In this document: positions 34,966-39,867 of the stretch, one piece after another
Numbering within the stretch: position 1 is the stretch's first letter
Layout: every line of letters begins with the position of its first letter
DNA from: Archangium primigenium
GTDB lineage: Bacteria; Myxococcota; Myxococcia; Myxococcales; Myxococcaceae
Length of the DNA stretch: 64,000 nt
Reading direction: 5' to 3'
Assembly (NCBI RefSeq): GCF_016904885.1
Contig: NZ_JADWYI010000001.1
Coordinates: 7,621,224 to 7,685,223, forward strand
Program-made: the position numbers and the translations under genes
Notes under the pieces: generated by a model
What the model saw: the letters and a program-made list of their open reading frames with translations, nothing else
Told to the model about the DNA's origin: nothing
Databases searched by the model: none

Positions 34966-35603
34966 ATGTCACTGACCCGAAATCGCCCCGGCCTGCATCC
35001 CTGCCCAGGAATGAGGGAAGTCCACCGGGAGAACGCCTGTCACTCCCCACCGAAGATGGACGGATCGCGGCCATCCTCGCGGGGGATCGGCGCGCGGCCG
35101 AGTCGTTGTTGGCGGAGCTCTTGCCGCGTGTTCGCAATCTCGTGCGCTACCTGCGCCGGGGAGATCAGGACGTGGACGACATCGCCCAGGACGCCTTGAT
35201 GGCCATCTTGAGGGGCCTGCCCGGTTGGCGGGGCGAGGGCACCTTCAAGTCCTGGGTGGACCGGGTGGTGGCACACACGACCTTCGCCCACCTGCGCAAG
35301 GCCCGCGCGGCCCCGAGCCCGGTCGAGGAAGAAGACGACGACCTCGGGGAGTCGGTGCCCTCCACCGACGCCACCCCCGAGGCCTATGTCTTCCGCCGGG
35401 ACATGGTGCGACTGTTGGACGCCTTGTCGGACGAGCACCGGCAGGTGCTGGTGCTGCATCACGTGTTGGGCTTGAGCGTGCCGGAGATCACCGAGGAGCT
35501 CGGCATTCCGCTCGAAACGGTTCGCAGCCGGCTGCGCATCGGCCGGGCGAACCTCCGGGCCCTCTATGAAGGAACACCGGGCCGAGGAAAGGGCAGTCCA
35601 TGA
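34962..35603 (+). CDS. ECF-type RNA polymerase sigma factor
   Basis: 213 residues. Sigma region 2 lies at about 50-115 (RVRNLVRYLRRGDQDVDDIAQDALMAILRGLPGWRGEGTFKSWVDRVVAHTTFAHLRKAR), with the -10 recognition and core-binding helices. An acidic linker (VEEEDDDLGES) follows, then region 4 (LDALSDEHRQVLVLHHVLGLSVPEITEELGIPLETVRSRLRIGRANL) with the -35 helix-turn-helix. Both neighbours overlap it as ATGA, so the three proteins are made together. The cassette is likely autoregulated. Confidence 0.93.
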   Translation: MNVTDPKSPRPASLPRNEGSPPGERLSLPTEDGRIAAILAGDRRAAESLLAELLPRVRNLVRYLRRGDQDVDDIAQDALMAILRGLPGWRGEGTFKSWVDRVVAHTTFAHLRKARAAPSPVEEEDDDLGESVPSTDATPEAYVFRRDMVRLLDALSDEHRQVLVLHHVLGLSVPEITEELGIPLETVRSRLRIGRANLRALYEGTPGRGKGSP

Positions 35604-36424
35604 CGCCACCCCCCGACGAGCACGAGGAGCCGTTCGATCTGCTCGCGCCCCTGGATGACCTGCCCGGGCCCGCCCCGAGCCTGTCGCCCGAGAAGGCCGC
35701 GGCGCTGATTCAGGGTGCCCTCGCGGGTGCGTTTCCCGTGGCGCCGGCACCGGCCCCCGCGCTGGCTCCAGCGCCCCCGCCCGTTCGCGCGCGGGTGCCG
35801 CGGAGCGTCTGGGTGATGGGCGCGGGCGTGGCGGTGGTGGGGGCCGTGGTGGCCGTGGGCGTGTGGCGAGGTCGGCAGGAGCCGCCCCGCGTCGCGCCTC
35901 CGCCCCCCGTGGCCGAGGCCCTCCCCGTCCCCCCGCCGCCCGAACCCGCCCCGCCCGTGGCCGTGACCCCCGAGCCCGTGCCGCCCGTGGCCGTGACGCC
36001 CGAGCCCGAGCCCGTCCCGGCGCCCCGCGCCGCCGCCGAGCCCGAGGATCTGCTGCGCCGGGCCAACGAGCGCCGGGCCCAGGGCCAGTGGCGGGCCGCC
36101 GAGACGCTCTACCTGCGGGTCATCCAGGCCTCGCCCGGCTCGGAGTCCGCCTATGTGGCGCTGGTGGCCTCCGGAGGCCTGCGCGTGGAGCACCTGGACG
36201 ATGCCCGCGGCGGCCTGCGCCAGTACCAGCAGGCCCTGCGCCTGCGGGCCCGGGGCGCGTTGAGCGAGGAGGCCCGCCACGGCGTGGCCCGGGCCTGGCG
36301 GGCGCTCGGAGACCCGACCCAGGAGGCGCGGGCCCTGGAGGACTTCCTCGCCGCGCACCCGGACTCCCTGCGCGCCGAGGGGGCCCGACGCCGGTTGAGC
36401 GCGCTGGCCACCGAGAACAAATGA
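35600..36424 (+). CDS. single-pass membrane TPR protein, putative anti-sigma partner
   Basis: 274 residues. A short acidic cytosolic part (about 1-68) precedes one transmembrane helix (VWVMGAGVAVVGAVVAVGVW). A long Pro/Val-rich spacer follows, with a 30-bp tandem repeat at 35951-36010 coding VAVTPEPVPP. TPR-like helices end the protein (LLRRANERRAQGQWRAAETLYLRVIQ, then RHGVARAWRALGDPTQEARALEDFLAAHP). This is the layout of sigma-regulating membrane proteins, though no HHCC zinc anti-sigma motif is present. The anti-sigma role is inferred from operon position. Confidence 0.78.
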   Translation: MTPPPDEHEEPFDLLAPLDDLPGPAPSLSPEKAAALIQGALAGAFPVAPAPAPALAPAPPPVRARVPRSVWVMGAGVAVVGAVVAVGVWRGRQEPPRVAPPPPVAEALPVPPPPEPAPPVAVTPEPVPPVAVTPEPEPVPAPRAAAEPEDLLRRANERRAQGQWRAAETLYLRVIQASPGSESAYVALVASGGLRVEHLDDARGGLRQYQQALRLRARGALSEEARHGVARAWRALGDPTQEARALEDFLAAHPDSLRAEGARRRLSALATENK

Positions 36425-36439
36425 AGTAGCGTGGGGCCC

Positions 36440-37225
36440 ATGCCGCCGGGCCTCCTCCACCGGATTCGACGCGGAGCCGAGCCCTGGCTGGGGCTCGTGC
36501 TGTGCGTGGTCCTCTGGGACGTGGCGCTGGTGCTCACCCAGGTGCGCTGGCTGCCGCGTCCCGCCCAGGTACTGCTCGGGGTGGGGGAACTCCTGCACCG
36601 GGGCGTGCTGTTCAAGCACATCATCGCCTCGCTGTTCCGGGTGACCTGGGGCTTCCTGCTCGCGGTGGGCGTGGCCCTGCCGGTGGGCTTCCTCCTGGGC
36701 TGGAGCGGACGCGCGAGCCGCGCCCTCGCGCCCTATGTCCACCTGCTGCGGCCCATCAGCCCCCTGGCGTGGCTGCCCCTGTCCATCCTCTGGTGGGGCG
36801 TGGGGGACCTGTCCTCCGTCTTCATCATCTTCATCGCCTCCGCGCCGCCGCTCACCCTGGCCGCGATGAACGCCGTGCGCCACGTGCCCGCGGTCTACGT
36901 GAACGCCGGGCGCAACTTCGGCTTGAGCACCCCCCGGCTCTTCCTGCGCATCCTCCTGCCCGCGGCCCTGCCCGAGTTGCTCTCCGGCATGCGCCTGACG
37001 CTGGGGATTTCCTGGCTCGTCGTGGTGGCCGCGGAGATGCTCGCCGTGAACTCTGGACTGGGCTACCTCATCGTGGACTCCCGCAACGCGGGCAACCGGT
37101 ACGACCTCGTGGTCGCGGGCATGCTCTTCATCGGCCTCACCGGCCTGGCGCTCGATCAGGTGATGGCGCGCGGGGCCCGCCAGGTGCTGTCCCGGCGCGA
37201 GCTGCTCGGCGCGGAGGAGCCATGA
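36440..37225 (+). CDS. ABC transporter permease 1 (nitrate/sulfonate/taurine type)
   Basis: 261 residues with six hydrophobic helices. The EAA-loop contact is AGRNFGLSTPRLFLRILLPAALPELLSGMRLTLG, the SsuC/TauC/NrtB signature, followed by ISWLVVVAAEMLAVNSGLGYLIVDSRNAGNRYDLVVAGMLFIG, the typical C-terminal half. A GTG at 36431 is an alternative start. It overlaps the ATPase gene by 4 bp. Two permease genes in this operon differ from each other, suggesting a heterodimeric pore. Confidence 0.92.
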   Translation: MPPGLLHRIRRGAEPWLGLVLCVVLWDVALVLTQVRWLPRPAQVLLGVGELLHRGVLFKHIIASLFRVTWGFLLAVGVALPVGFLLGWSGRASRALAPYVHLLRPISPLAWLPLSILWWGVGDLSSVFIIFIASAPPLTLAAMNAVRHVPAVYVNAGRNFGLSTPRLFLRILLPAALPELLSGMRLTLGISWLVVVAAEMLAVNSGLGYLIVDSRNAGNRYDLVVAGMLFIGLTGLALDQVMARGARQVLSRRELLGAEEP

Positions 37226-37980
37226 GTCGCCCCCTCAAGCTGCGCGTGCGGGGGGTCTCGGTGTCCTATGCCGTGGAGGGCCAGGCGCGGCGGGTGCTCG
37301 CCCCGGTGGACTTCGACTGCCACGAGGGCGAGGTGCTCTGCCTGCTGGGCCCCACGGGGTGTGGCAAGTCCACGCTGCTGCACGTCATCGGCGGCTTCTT
37401 GAAGCCCACCGAGGGCGAGGTGCTCATCGACGGACAACCCGTCACCCGGCCCGACCCCCGGCGCATCCTCGTGACCCAGGAGCGCGGCGTGTTTCCGTGG
37501 CTCACGGTGGAGGAGAACATCGGCTTCGGACTGGCCGACCGGCCCGAGGCCTGGCGGCGGGAGCGGGTCGCGCACTACCTGAAGCTGGTGGGGCTCGAGG
37601 GCTCCGCCCGGGCCTACCCCGCGGAGCTTTCCGGCGGCATGAAGCAGCGGCTCGAGGTGGCGCGGGCCCTGGCGGTCAATCCGGACATGCTCCTGCTCGA
37701 CGAGGCCTTCAGCGCGCTGGACGCCATCACCCGCTACACCCTGCGCCAGGAGCTGCTGCGGCTGTGGACCGCCGAGAAGAAGACCGTCGTCCTGGTGACC
37801 CACGACCTCGACGAGGCGCTCCAGTTGGCGGACCGCGTGCTGGTGCTGTCGGCGCCGCCGGGCCGGCTCCAACGGAGCCTGGACATCGCCATGCCCCACC
37901 CGAGGGATCTCACGTCCCCGGAGTACCTCCAGCACCACCGCCAGCTGCTCGACGAGCTCGGCCTGGCGCACCGGATTTGA
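37222..37980 (+). CDS. ABC transporter ATP-binding protein (SsuB/TauB type)
   Basis: 252 residues. Walker A GPTGCGKST, Q-loop VTQERGVFPWLTVEENIGFGL, signature LSGGMKQR, Walker B MLLLDEAFSALD and H-loop VTHDLDEA are all canonical. The QERGVFPW Q-loop and the DEAF Walker B are typical of nitrate/sulfonate/taurine importers. It is peripheral on the inner membrane, driving import through the two permeases. It lies between them in a tightly packed operon. Confidence 0.95.
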   Translation: MSRPLKLRVRGVSVSYAVEGQARRVLAPVDFDCHEGEVLCLLGPTGCGKSTLLHVIGGFLKPTEGEVLIDGQPVTRPDPRRILVTQERGVFPWLTVEENIGFGLADRPEAWRRERVAHYLKLVGLEGSARAYPAELSGGMKQRLEVARALAVNPDMLLLDEAFSALDAITRYTLRQELLRLWTAEKKTVVLVTHDLDEALQLADRVLVLSAPPGRLQRSLDIAMPHPRDLTSPEYLQHHRQLLDELGLAHRI

Positions 37981-37993
37981 GGAGAGGCTGGCC

Positions 37994-38767
37994 GTGACGC
38001 TCCCGCGAGGACTCCGCGCGCTCCTTCCGCCCGCCGCCGTGGGCGTGCTGCTGCTGCTCGTCTGGCACGCGAGCGTGAAGCTCACCCGGACGACCGTCAT
38101 CCCCACGCCCGCGCAGGTGCTGCTCGGCCTGGAGGAGCTGGCCGTGCGGGGGCGGCTGCTGACCCATGCGCGGGACTCGCTCGGGCGGGTGCTGGCGGGC
38201 TACACGCTCGCGGTGGTGCTCGGCGTGCCCACGGGCCTAGTGATGGGCCTGCACGCGCCCAGCGCGCGCATGGCCGGTCCGGTCACCCAGTTGCTGCGCC
38301 CCATCAGCCCGCTGGCCTGGAGCCCCGTGGCCATCCTCCTGTTCGGCGTGGAGCAGGCGGCCACCGTGTTCCTCATCTTCCTGGCGTCGCTCTTTCCCAT
38401 CGTGGCGTACACCCGCGAGGCCGTGCAGCGCGTGCCGGTGCTCTACCTCCGGGCGGGCCGCAACCTGGGCCTGGGGCCGGGGGCCCTGCTCCGCCGCGTC
38501 ATCTTCCCGGCGAGCCTGCCCTCGGTGCTCACCGGGCTGCGCATCACGCTGGGCGTCGCCTGGCTGGTGGTGGTCGCCGCGGAGATGATTGGCGTGAACT
38601 CGGGCCTGGGCTACCTGCTCATCGACGCGCGCAACGCGGGCAAACGCTACGACCTGGTCGTCGGGAGCATGCTACTCATGGGCGGTATCGGTCTGGTGCT
38701 GGACCTGGCCATGCGCCGGTTGGAACGGGTCCCCGCGGTGCGGTGGGCCTTCACTCGGGAGTCTTGA
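37994..38767 (+). CDS. ABC transporter permease 2 (nitrate/sulfonate/taurine type)
   Basis: 257 residues from a GTG with GGAG upstream. Six hydrophobic segments. The EAA loop AGRNLGLGPGALLRRVIFPASLPSVLTGLRITLG and the C-terminal VAWLVVVAAEMIGVNSGLGYLLIDARNAGKRYDLVVGSMLLMG are the same family as permease 1, but the sequences differ throughout, so this is not a recent duplication. Its stop codon shares one base with the ATG of the substrate-binding gene (TGATG), implying coupled translation. Confidence 0.92.
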   Translation: MTLPRGLRALLPPAAVGVLLLLVWHASVKLTRTTVIPTPAQVLLGLEELAVRGRLLTHARDSLGRVLAGYTLAVVLGVPTGLVMGLHAPSARMAGPVTQLLRPISPLAWSPVAILLFGVEQAATVFLIFLASLFPIVAYTREAVQRVPVLYLRAGRNLGLGPGALLRRVIFPASLPSVLTGLRITLGVAWLVVVAAEMIGVNSGLGYLLIDARNAGKRYDLVVGSMLLMGGIGLVLDLAMRRLERVPAVRWAFTRES

Positions 38768-39867
38768 TGTCGTCCTCGAACCCTCGGACCCGCTCGTCCC
38801 CCCGCGCCCTCCTGGGCGGCGTGCTCCTGTGGACCCTCATCGTGAGCGTGCTCCATCTGGCCTTCAACGTGCGCTGGGACAGCGTGCGCAACGGCCTGCT
38901 GCCGGAGAGCGAGCGTCGGCTCGACGTGGCCTACATCCCCGTCACCTGACACCTCGCGTGTCCGGTGACCGACTACATCGCCCGTCGCTCACTCGATGAG
39001 TACCTGTTCATCCCCCATCTGTTCCAGGGGTTCCCGGAGATCAAGGAGGCGTTGATCTCCAATCGAGTGCAGGCGGGCTTCCTGGTCGCTCCCCTGGCCG
39101 TGGCCCTGCGGTCGCAGGGCGTCCCCATCAAGATCGTGTACCTCGGTCACCGCTACGGCAGCGCGGCGGTGGTCAAGAAGGACGGCCCCGTGCGCGCGGT
39201 GGCCGACCTGAAGGGCAGGACCATGGCCGTGCCCAGCCGCTTCTCGGACGAGCGGCTGCTGTTGTCGCGCGCGTTGGATCAGAACGGGCTCGCGCCGGAG
39301 GACGTGCGGGTCGTGGAGATGACGCCCGCGGACGTGGCGGGCGCGCTCGCGTCCAACGCCATCGACGGGTTCGTCATGGGCGAGCCCTTCCCGTCGCAGG
39401 CGGAGCTGGGGGGCTATGGCCGGGTGCTCTTCCAGGCCGGCGAGTACTGGCCGGACTACATGTCCTGCGTGCTGGTGGTGCGCGACGAGGTCATCGCGCG
39501 GCGGCCCGAGGCGGTGCAGGTGCTGGTGGATGGCATCGCCCGCTCGGGGCTGTGGCTGGACGCGGGCAAGTCCGAGCGAGAGTACGCGGCGGAGTTCGTG
39601 GGGCGCTACTACTACAACCAGCCGCCCTCGCTGTTGAAGTGGGCGCTCACCCAGCCGCTGGACCGCGTGCGCTTCAACCCGCTGAGCCCCCGCCGGGACG
39701 ACTTCGAGCTGGTGCTGCGGCTCATGCGCGAGCACCACCTCATCGACAAGCCCCTGGCCTTCGAGGACTACGTGGACATGCGCTTCGCCGAGGGAGCCGC
39801 CCACGAGACGGCCTGGGACTACCCGGTGGGGCCGGGCCGGTGGGATCCGGACGCGGCGGACGACTGA
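38767..39867 (+). CDS. ABC substrate-binding protein with in-frame TGA at codon 61 (possible selenoprotein)
   Basis: Read through the TGA at 38947-38949, the gene encodes 366 residues. A short basic N-terminus and membrane segment (ALLGGVLLWTLIVSVLHLAF) anchor it. Then comes LDVAYIPVT, the TGA, and H-L-A-C-P-V-T-D-Y, leading into the binding fold (SNRVQAGFLVAPLAVALRSQGVPIKIVYLGH; VVEMTPADVAGALASNAIDGFVMGEPF). This is the NrtA/CmpA/TauA-type binding protein family. The frame is unbroken on both sides and neither frameshift nor insertion is seen. A GTG at 38965 could start the downstream part but has no ribosome site and would remove the membrane anchor and the first binding strand. Recoding (selenocysteine), read-through or a recent nonsense mutation are the options. 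Confidence 0.72.
38941..38973 (+). other. hairpins around the in-frame TGA (possible SECIS region)
   Basis: Two alternative stems. First, GTCACC (38941) pairs with GGTGAC (38964), and inside it GACAC pairs with GTGTC around the 5-nt loop CTCGC; the TGA is within its 5' arm, unlike a known SECIS. Second, GTC-C-GG / CC-GAC at 38960-38973 forms 5 bp with a bulged C and a UGA loop whose start is 16 nt after the TGA, within the range I recall for bacterial SECIS elements and with a G in the loop. Both are predictions by eye. Confidence 0.35.

Follow-up and report, generated by a model that had tools for sequence, protein, structure and literature searches.

A predicted selenocysteine in the binding protein of a NitT/TauT-type ABC transporter points to an apparently undescribed Cys/Sec-exchanging protein family in Myxococcota and Acidobacteriota

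Within the 64,000 nt of Archangium primigenium DNA analysed here (the window), four tightly packed genes on the forward strand encode the components of an ABC transporter, in the order permease (36431–37225), ATPase (37222–37980), second permease (37994–38767) and substrate-binding protein (38767–39867), and this order is kept in most of the related loci. The two permeases and the ATPase were assigned by profile matches, with conserved gene order as additional evidence for the first permease, and all three partner genes are intact. The first permease gene overlaps the ATPase gene in an ATGA sequence (37222–37225), while the second permease gene and the binding-protein gene overlap by one base, the final A of the TGA stop serving as the first base of the ATG at 38767 (TGATG). 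A gene for a TPR-like protein (35600–36424) ends 6 nt 5′ of the first permease gene, and is possibly part of the same transcript. The four genes form a transporter of the NitT/TauT type, for which the direction of transport and the identity of the ligand are predictions. The binding protein was grouped by Pfam and NCBIfam as NMT1-like and similar to SsuA, TauA and NrtA, with scores of 86.4 bits for PF13379 (gathering score 24.7) and 60.7 bits for PF09084 (gathering score 20.5), the Pfam NMT1_2/NMT1 models.

The binding-protein gene encodes 366 aa if an in-frame TGA at codon 61 (38947–38949) is read as selenocysteine (Sec), which, judged from the sequence comparisons below, it very probably is. 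The codons GTC ACC TGA CAC CTC GCG TGT CCG GTG ACC GAC TAC lie in the single frame of 38767–39867 and specify the motif PVT-U-HLACPVTD, in which Cys65 (38959–38961) provides the second thiol of U-H-L-A-C. Both Cys65 and a third cysteine, Cys234 (39466–39468), are invariant in an alignment of 28 sequences. Residues 12–34 (38800–38868) are predicted from secondary structure and sequence to form an N-terminal helix resembling a signal anchor, which may hold the protein at the membrane. Since relatives align end to end across the TGA, a single domain spans both of its sides. An earlier note, made from the window alone, had placed the in-frame TGA at residue 61, four residues ahead of Cys65, had taken the protein before and after it for one binding protein and had described the three partner genes as intact, and these descriptions agree with the codon reading, the alignment of relatives and the open, overlapping partner genes, respectively.

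A search of 59 related genomes showed that the TGA is kept in three of them (G002, G003 and G016) and that G019 and G034 carry TGC or TGT instead, with Cys also found at this codon in G008. We subsequently widened the search to 80 loci of named genomes and 195 genomes of the phylum, which resulted in 95 loci, some of them duplicates. Codon 61 was TGA in 27 of these loci, TGC in 55, TGT in 12 and GAT in one, giving Cys in 67/95 and Asp in 1/95, and neither of the other stop codons (TAA, TAG) nor any other residue was found at this position among the 95 loci. The single Asp belongs to a distant member (L152), which also lacks Cys65. The TGA-bearing genes come from several genera of Myxococcota and from Acidobacteriota, and their 24 distinct sequences comprise 10 close myxobacterial, 12 mostly acidobacterial and two distant ones. 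The family motif reads PVT-U/C-H/Q-L-A/T-C-P-V, with T-D next in most cases. A distant TGA-bearing homolog with 36.7% identity (L153, genome G144) reads PVT-U-HLTCPVT, and has a different set of genes alongside. The recurrence of TGA at this one codon across many independent genomes rules out both chance and a base-calling error.

When a maximum-likelihood tree was built from 88 distinct proteins with residue 61 masked, at least nine changes between Sec and Cys were required, of which at least five are forced by strongly supported branches. One example is Citreicoccus (L065, genomes G019 and G034), which has Cys and shares its clade with TGA-bearing myxobacterial relatives. Such repeated changes are what would be expected of Sec/Cys exchange and not of gene decay, and the family would have switched between the two residues repeatedly, with many relatives using Cys at residue 61. 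One sequence labelled as Comamonas sp. KCTC 72670 (L060, BNCN01000001.1) clusters with Myxococcus in this tree, and its label looks wrong.

The genome containing the window (9.49 Mb in three contigs) encodes a complete set of the Sec genes searched for, with a tRNA-Sec with TCA anticodon (66.9 bits), SelB (325.7 bits), SelA (557.7 bits) and SelD (379.6 bits), and tRNA-Sec and SelB were found in all 15 genomes tested. Among 50 named genomes, SelA was present in 16/16 genomes with the TGA form and in 23/34 with the Cys form (one-sided p = 0.0077, a value which ignores kinship and genome completeness). The same genome also encodes a second selenoprotein, a Sec-type formate dehydrogenase (FdhA, G000:C1:865661-868660; L171, L174), with an in-frame TGA followed by a His codon, which likewise would be decoded by this machinery. 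In the model that we propose, SelB and tRNA-Sec would act at codon 61 of the binding-protein gene to insert Sec.

The two genes differ in the sequences following the TGA, and it is here that the case for Sec in the binding protein is weakest. The fdhA genes of this genome and of three others (G002, G142 and G058) have strong hairpins after the TGA with GGUCU or AGUCU at the tip, and in the window's genome this hairpin is a textbook SECIS with a GGUCU loop, whereas the binding-protein gene shows no such structure. Neither an RNAalifold analysis of the 24 distinct TGA genes nor an Rfam search at the binding-protein site gave a convincing SECIS, and a covariance model made from the FdhA SECIS elements of the same lineages scored >70 bits on FdhA without a match at the binding-protein site. 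A hairpin scan using bSECIS rules was positive in 25% of the TGA genes, 20% of the Cys genes and 8–29% of synonymous shuffles, so that the TGA genes do not stand out from either reference. In the myxobacterial genes, a hairpin of 4 bp that includes one covarying pair was rejected, as it is too near the UGA for a usual SECIS, and by inspection the covarying pair is not kept in most acidobacterial TGA genes.

Synonymous codon choice just downstream of the TGA is biased, with CCG used for Pro66 in 23/24 TGA genes versus 51% gene-wide (p = 6.5e-6), and ACC or ACT used for Thr68 in 22/24 versus 46% (p = 1.5e-5), while the Cys genes display a weaker bias (73% and 66%, respectively). As these positions were picked after seeing the data, we consider the bias a lead only. 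The corresponding stretch, CCGGTNACYGA (38962–38972), lacks a stable hairpin and is possibly part of an atypical SECIS; the bias would put a GGU-type loop about 15 nt past the UGA. Synonymous conservation past the TGA rises only modestly and is higher elsewhere in the gene. At codons +45 to +59 past the TGA, synonymous identity was 1.55 times expectation in the TGA genes, but not in the Cys genes.

A single in-frame stop beside three intact partner genes could also have arisen by a recent nonsense mutation, or reflect an error of sequencing, in a gene encoding Cys or Trp at this position, which would make it a pseudogene, and the earlier note considered a recent nonsense mutation the main rival to a Sec-containing homolog. 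This is refuted by the conservation of the same TGA across several genera and a second phylum, in genomes independent of one another and without TAA or TAG, which also answers the earlier concern about the base itself, and by a gene that is open and conserved on both sides. The segment preceding the TGA has a dN/dS of approximately 0.3–0.5 when the window gene is compared with congeners and near relatives, rising against a more distant relative, and we regard a mutation or error as practically negligible. A frame of 300 aa runs from the GTG at 38965 to the end of the gene, so that translation might start there with the TGA merely closing a short upstream frame. Such a start would forfeit the invariant motif together with strand 1 and the signal anchor, and the part upstream of it shows conservation at the protein level. 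Moreover, 16/24 distinct TGA genes have GTC or GTT in place of this GTG, which makes an internal start highly improbable.

Readthrough of the TGA by another route, either by a near-cognate tRNA (Trp, Cys or Arg) or as programmed readthrough, would fit the lack of a canonical SECIS hairpin, and is unlikely, albeit less so than a mutation or an internal start. In relatives, the TGA gives way to no residue but Cys and, in one case, Asp, and all 16 TGA-bearing genomes tested for SelA had it; both observations fit Sec better than generic readthrough. The Sec-containing homolog proposed in the earlier note has the TGA/Cys column, the TGA across phyla and the Sec machinery in its favour: selA, selB, selD and tRNA-Sec were all found in the genome, scoring the column in the alignment of homologs gave 27 TGA, 67 Cys and one Asp in 95 loci, and the Cys-His-Leu-x-Cys given there for related proteins corresponds to an almost invariant Cys in the form C-H/Q-L-A/T-C.

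Comparison with known selenoproteins showed that the motif UHLxCPVTD is not among the 119 prokaryotic selenoprotein families and subfamilies of a review from May 2026, which include the ABC binding proteins SaoX, SaoB and BtuF (PMC13188914). In NCBIfam release 20 no family was above cut-off for the window protein, which stayed below every cut-off shown, and an alignment of 28 members matched only the same few families, with scores shown for its first member alone. SaoX (NF040735) is likewise the substrate-binding subunit of an ABC importer with a predicted Sec, and is distantly homologous to the window protein over residues 91–254, but the score was only 43.2 bits where the curated cut-off is 300, and the Sec motif of SaoX is listed as UxP (PMC13188914). 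For SaoB (NF040727), another Sec-containing ABC binding protein in which Sec may bind metal, the window protein gave no match at an E-value of 0.01, and its TUHLA differs from the listed motif CUxxT (PMC13188914). Membership of SaoX or SaoB was ruled out based on score and motif. The SsuA, TauA and NrtA proteins of the NitT/TauT group share the fold, the NMT1_2/NMT1 domains and the ABC partners with the window family; the window protein falls under their NCBIfam cut-offs and, unlike them, the family has a conserved U/C-x3-C in the first loop. Our literature searches found no paper describing a UHLxC family, with the primary SaoX and SaoB papers outside their scope, so that an earlier mention is possible. 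The UHLxC binding proteins therefore appear to be an undescribed selenoprotein family of the Cys/Sec-exchanging kind.

The binding-protein fold, including the N-terminal helix, was predicted with confidence by AlphaFold (mean pLDDT 83). In this model, residue 61 falls within the loop that follows strand 1 of the periplasmic-binding-protein fold, four residues ahead of the invariant Cys65, in a region of low local confidence (block means of 55–56 for residues 61–80). The best match in the PDB, by fold and sequence, was 3UN6, an ABC ligand-binding component of S. aureus (Z-score 33.4, 24% identity), which is titled as zinc-bound. Its YLPITHS lies opposite YIPVTU/CH of the family, which aligns a His of 3UN6 with residue 61 in a loop that, unlike that of the window family, has neither Cys nor Sec. 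The 3UN6 protein has been called a metal-binding protein, and metal import was proposed for related transporters (PMC6344411).

Among the Cys-type loci, 34/63 have just downstream a small gene encoding an apparently exported HMA-like protein with a CxxC motif (GFTCxTC), which matches the HMA profile over its full length at slightly under the Pfam gathering score. In Acidobacteriota this gene lies some 930 nt past codon 61 (L063, L072, L073, L082, L091, L117 and others), and is often followed by a DUF169 gene. It was found in 0/14 TGA-type loci tested; as the neighbour occurs mainly in one acidobacterial group, its absence from the TGA loci may reflect kinship. A second recurring neighbour, in several lineages, is a flavoprotein gene of the FAD-dependent/tryptophan-halogenase-like or Pyr_redox_3 type (L158:2849-4726, L159:3204-4775, L164:8141-9742, L104, L131 and L132), so that an organic substrate is also conceivable.

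The zinc-bound 3UN6, with His at the column, and the HMA-like CxxC neighbours are the two observations which suggest a metal at residue 61. Based on these, Sec61 or Cys61 together with Cys65 may form a soft ligand, with a thiophilic metal, metalloid or metal complex as the cargo of the transporter, and such a role, although we put it at a little under even, is the single likeliest for residue 61. An alternative that competes only with this ligand part accepts Sec but assumes an ordinary substrate, such as a sulfonate-like compound, a secondary metabolite or a cofactor precursor, with Sec61 serving in redox sensing or covalent capture. The Pfam and NCBIfam relatives, which bind sulfonate, taurine and nitrate, and the recurring flavoprotein genes are consistent with such a substrate, while the zinc of the closest solved relative, its His at the position of residue 61 and the HMA-like CxxC genes adjoining many of the Cys forms argue against it, and overall we give it not far from an even chance. 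The fullest version of our proposal, a Sec-dependent ABC importer of soft metals or metalloids in Myxococcota and Acidobacteriota, with Sec as a ligand in the pocket and an atypical minimal SECIS operating beside the textbook SECIS of FdhA, is tentative, with rather less than an even prospect of being correct as a whole.

The UHLxC proteins would represent an apparently undescribed selenoprotein family beyond the usual redox enzymes with a thioredoxin fold, in lineages for which we found little selenoprotein literature. Annotation that reads the TGA as a stop codon will call these genes truncated. Given that no canonical SECIS was found, one may ask what SelB requires in these bacteria. Finally, the many alternations between Cys and Sec in one family provide natural pairs, which may allow for assessing the benefit of selenium over sulfur in a binding protein.
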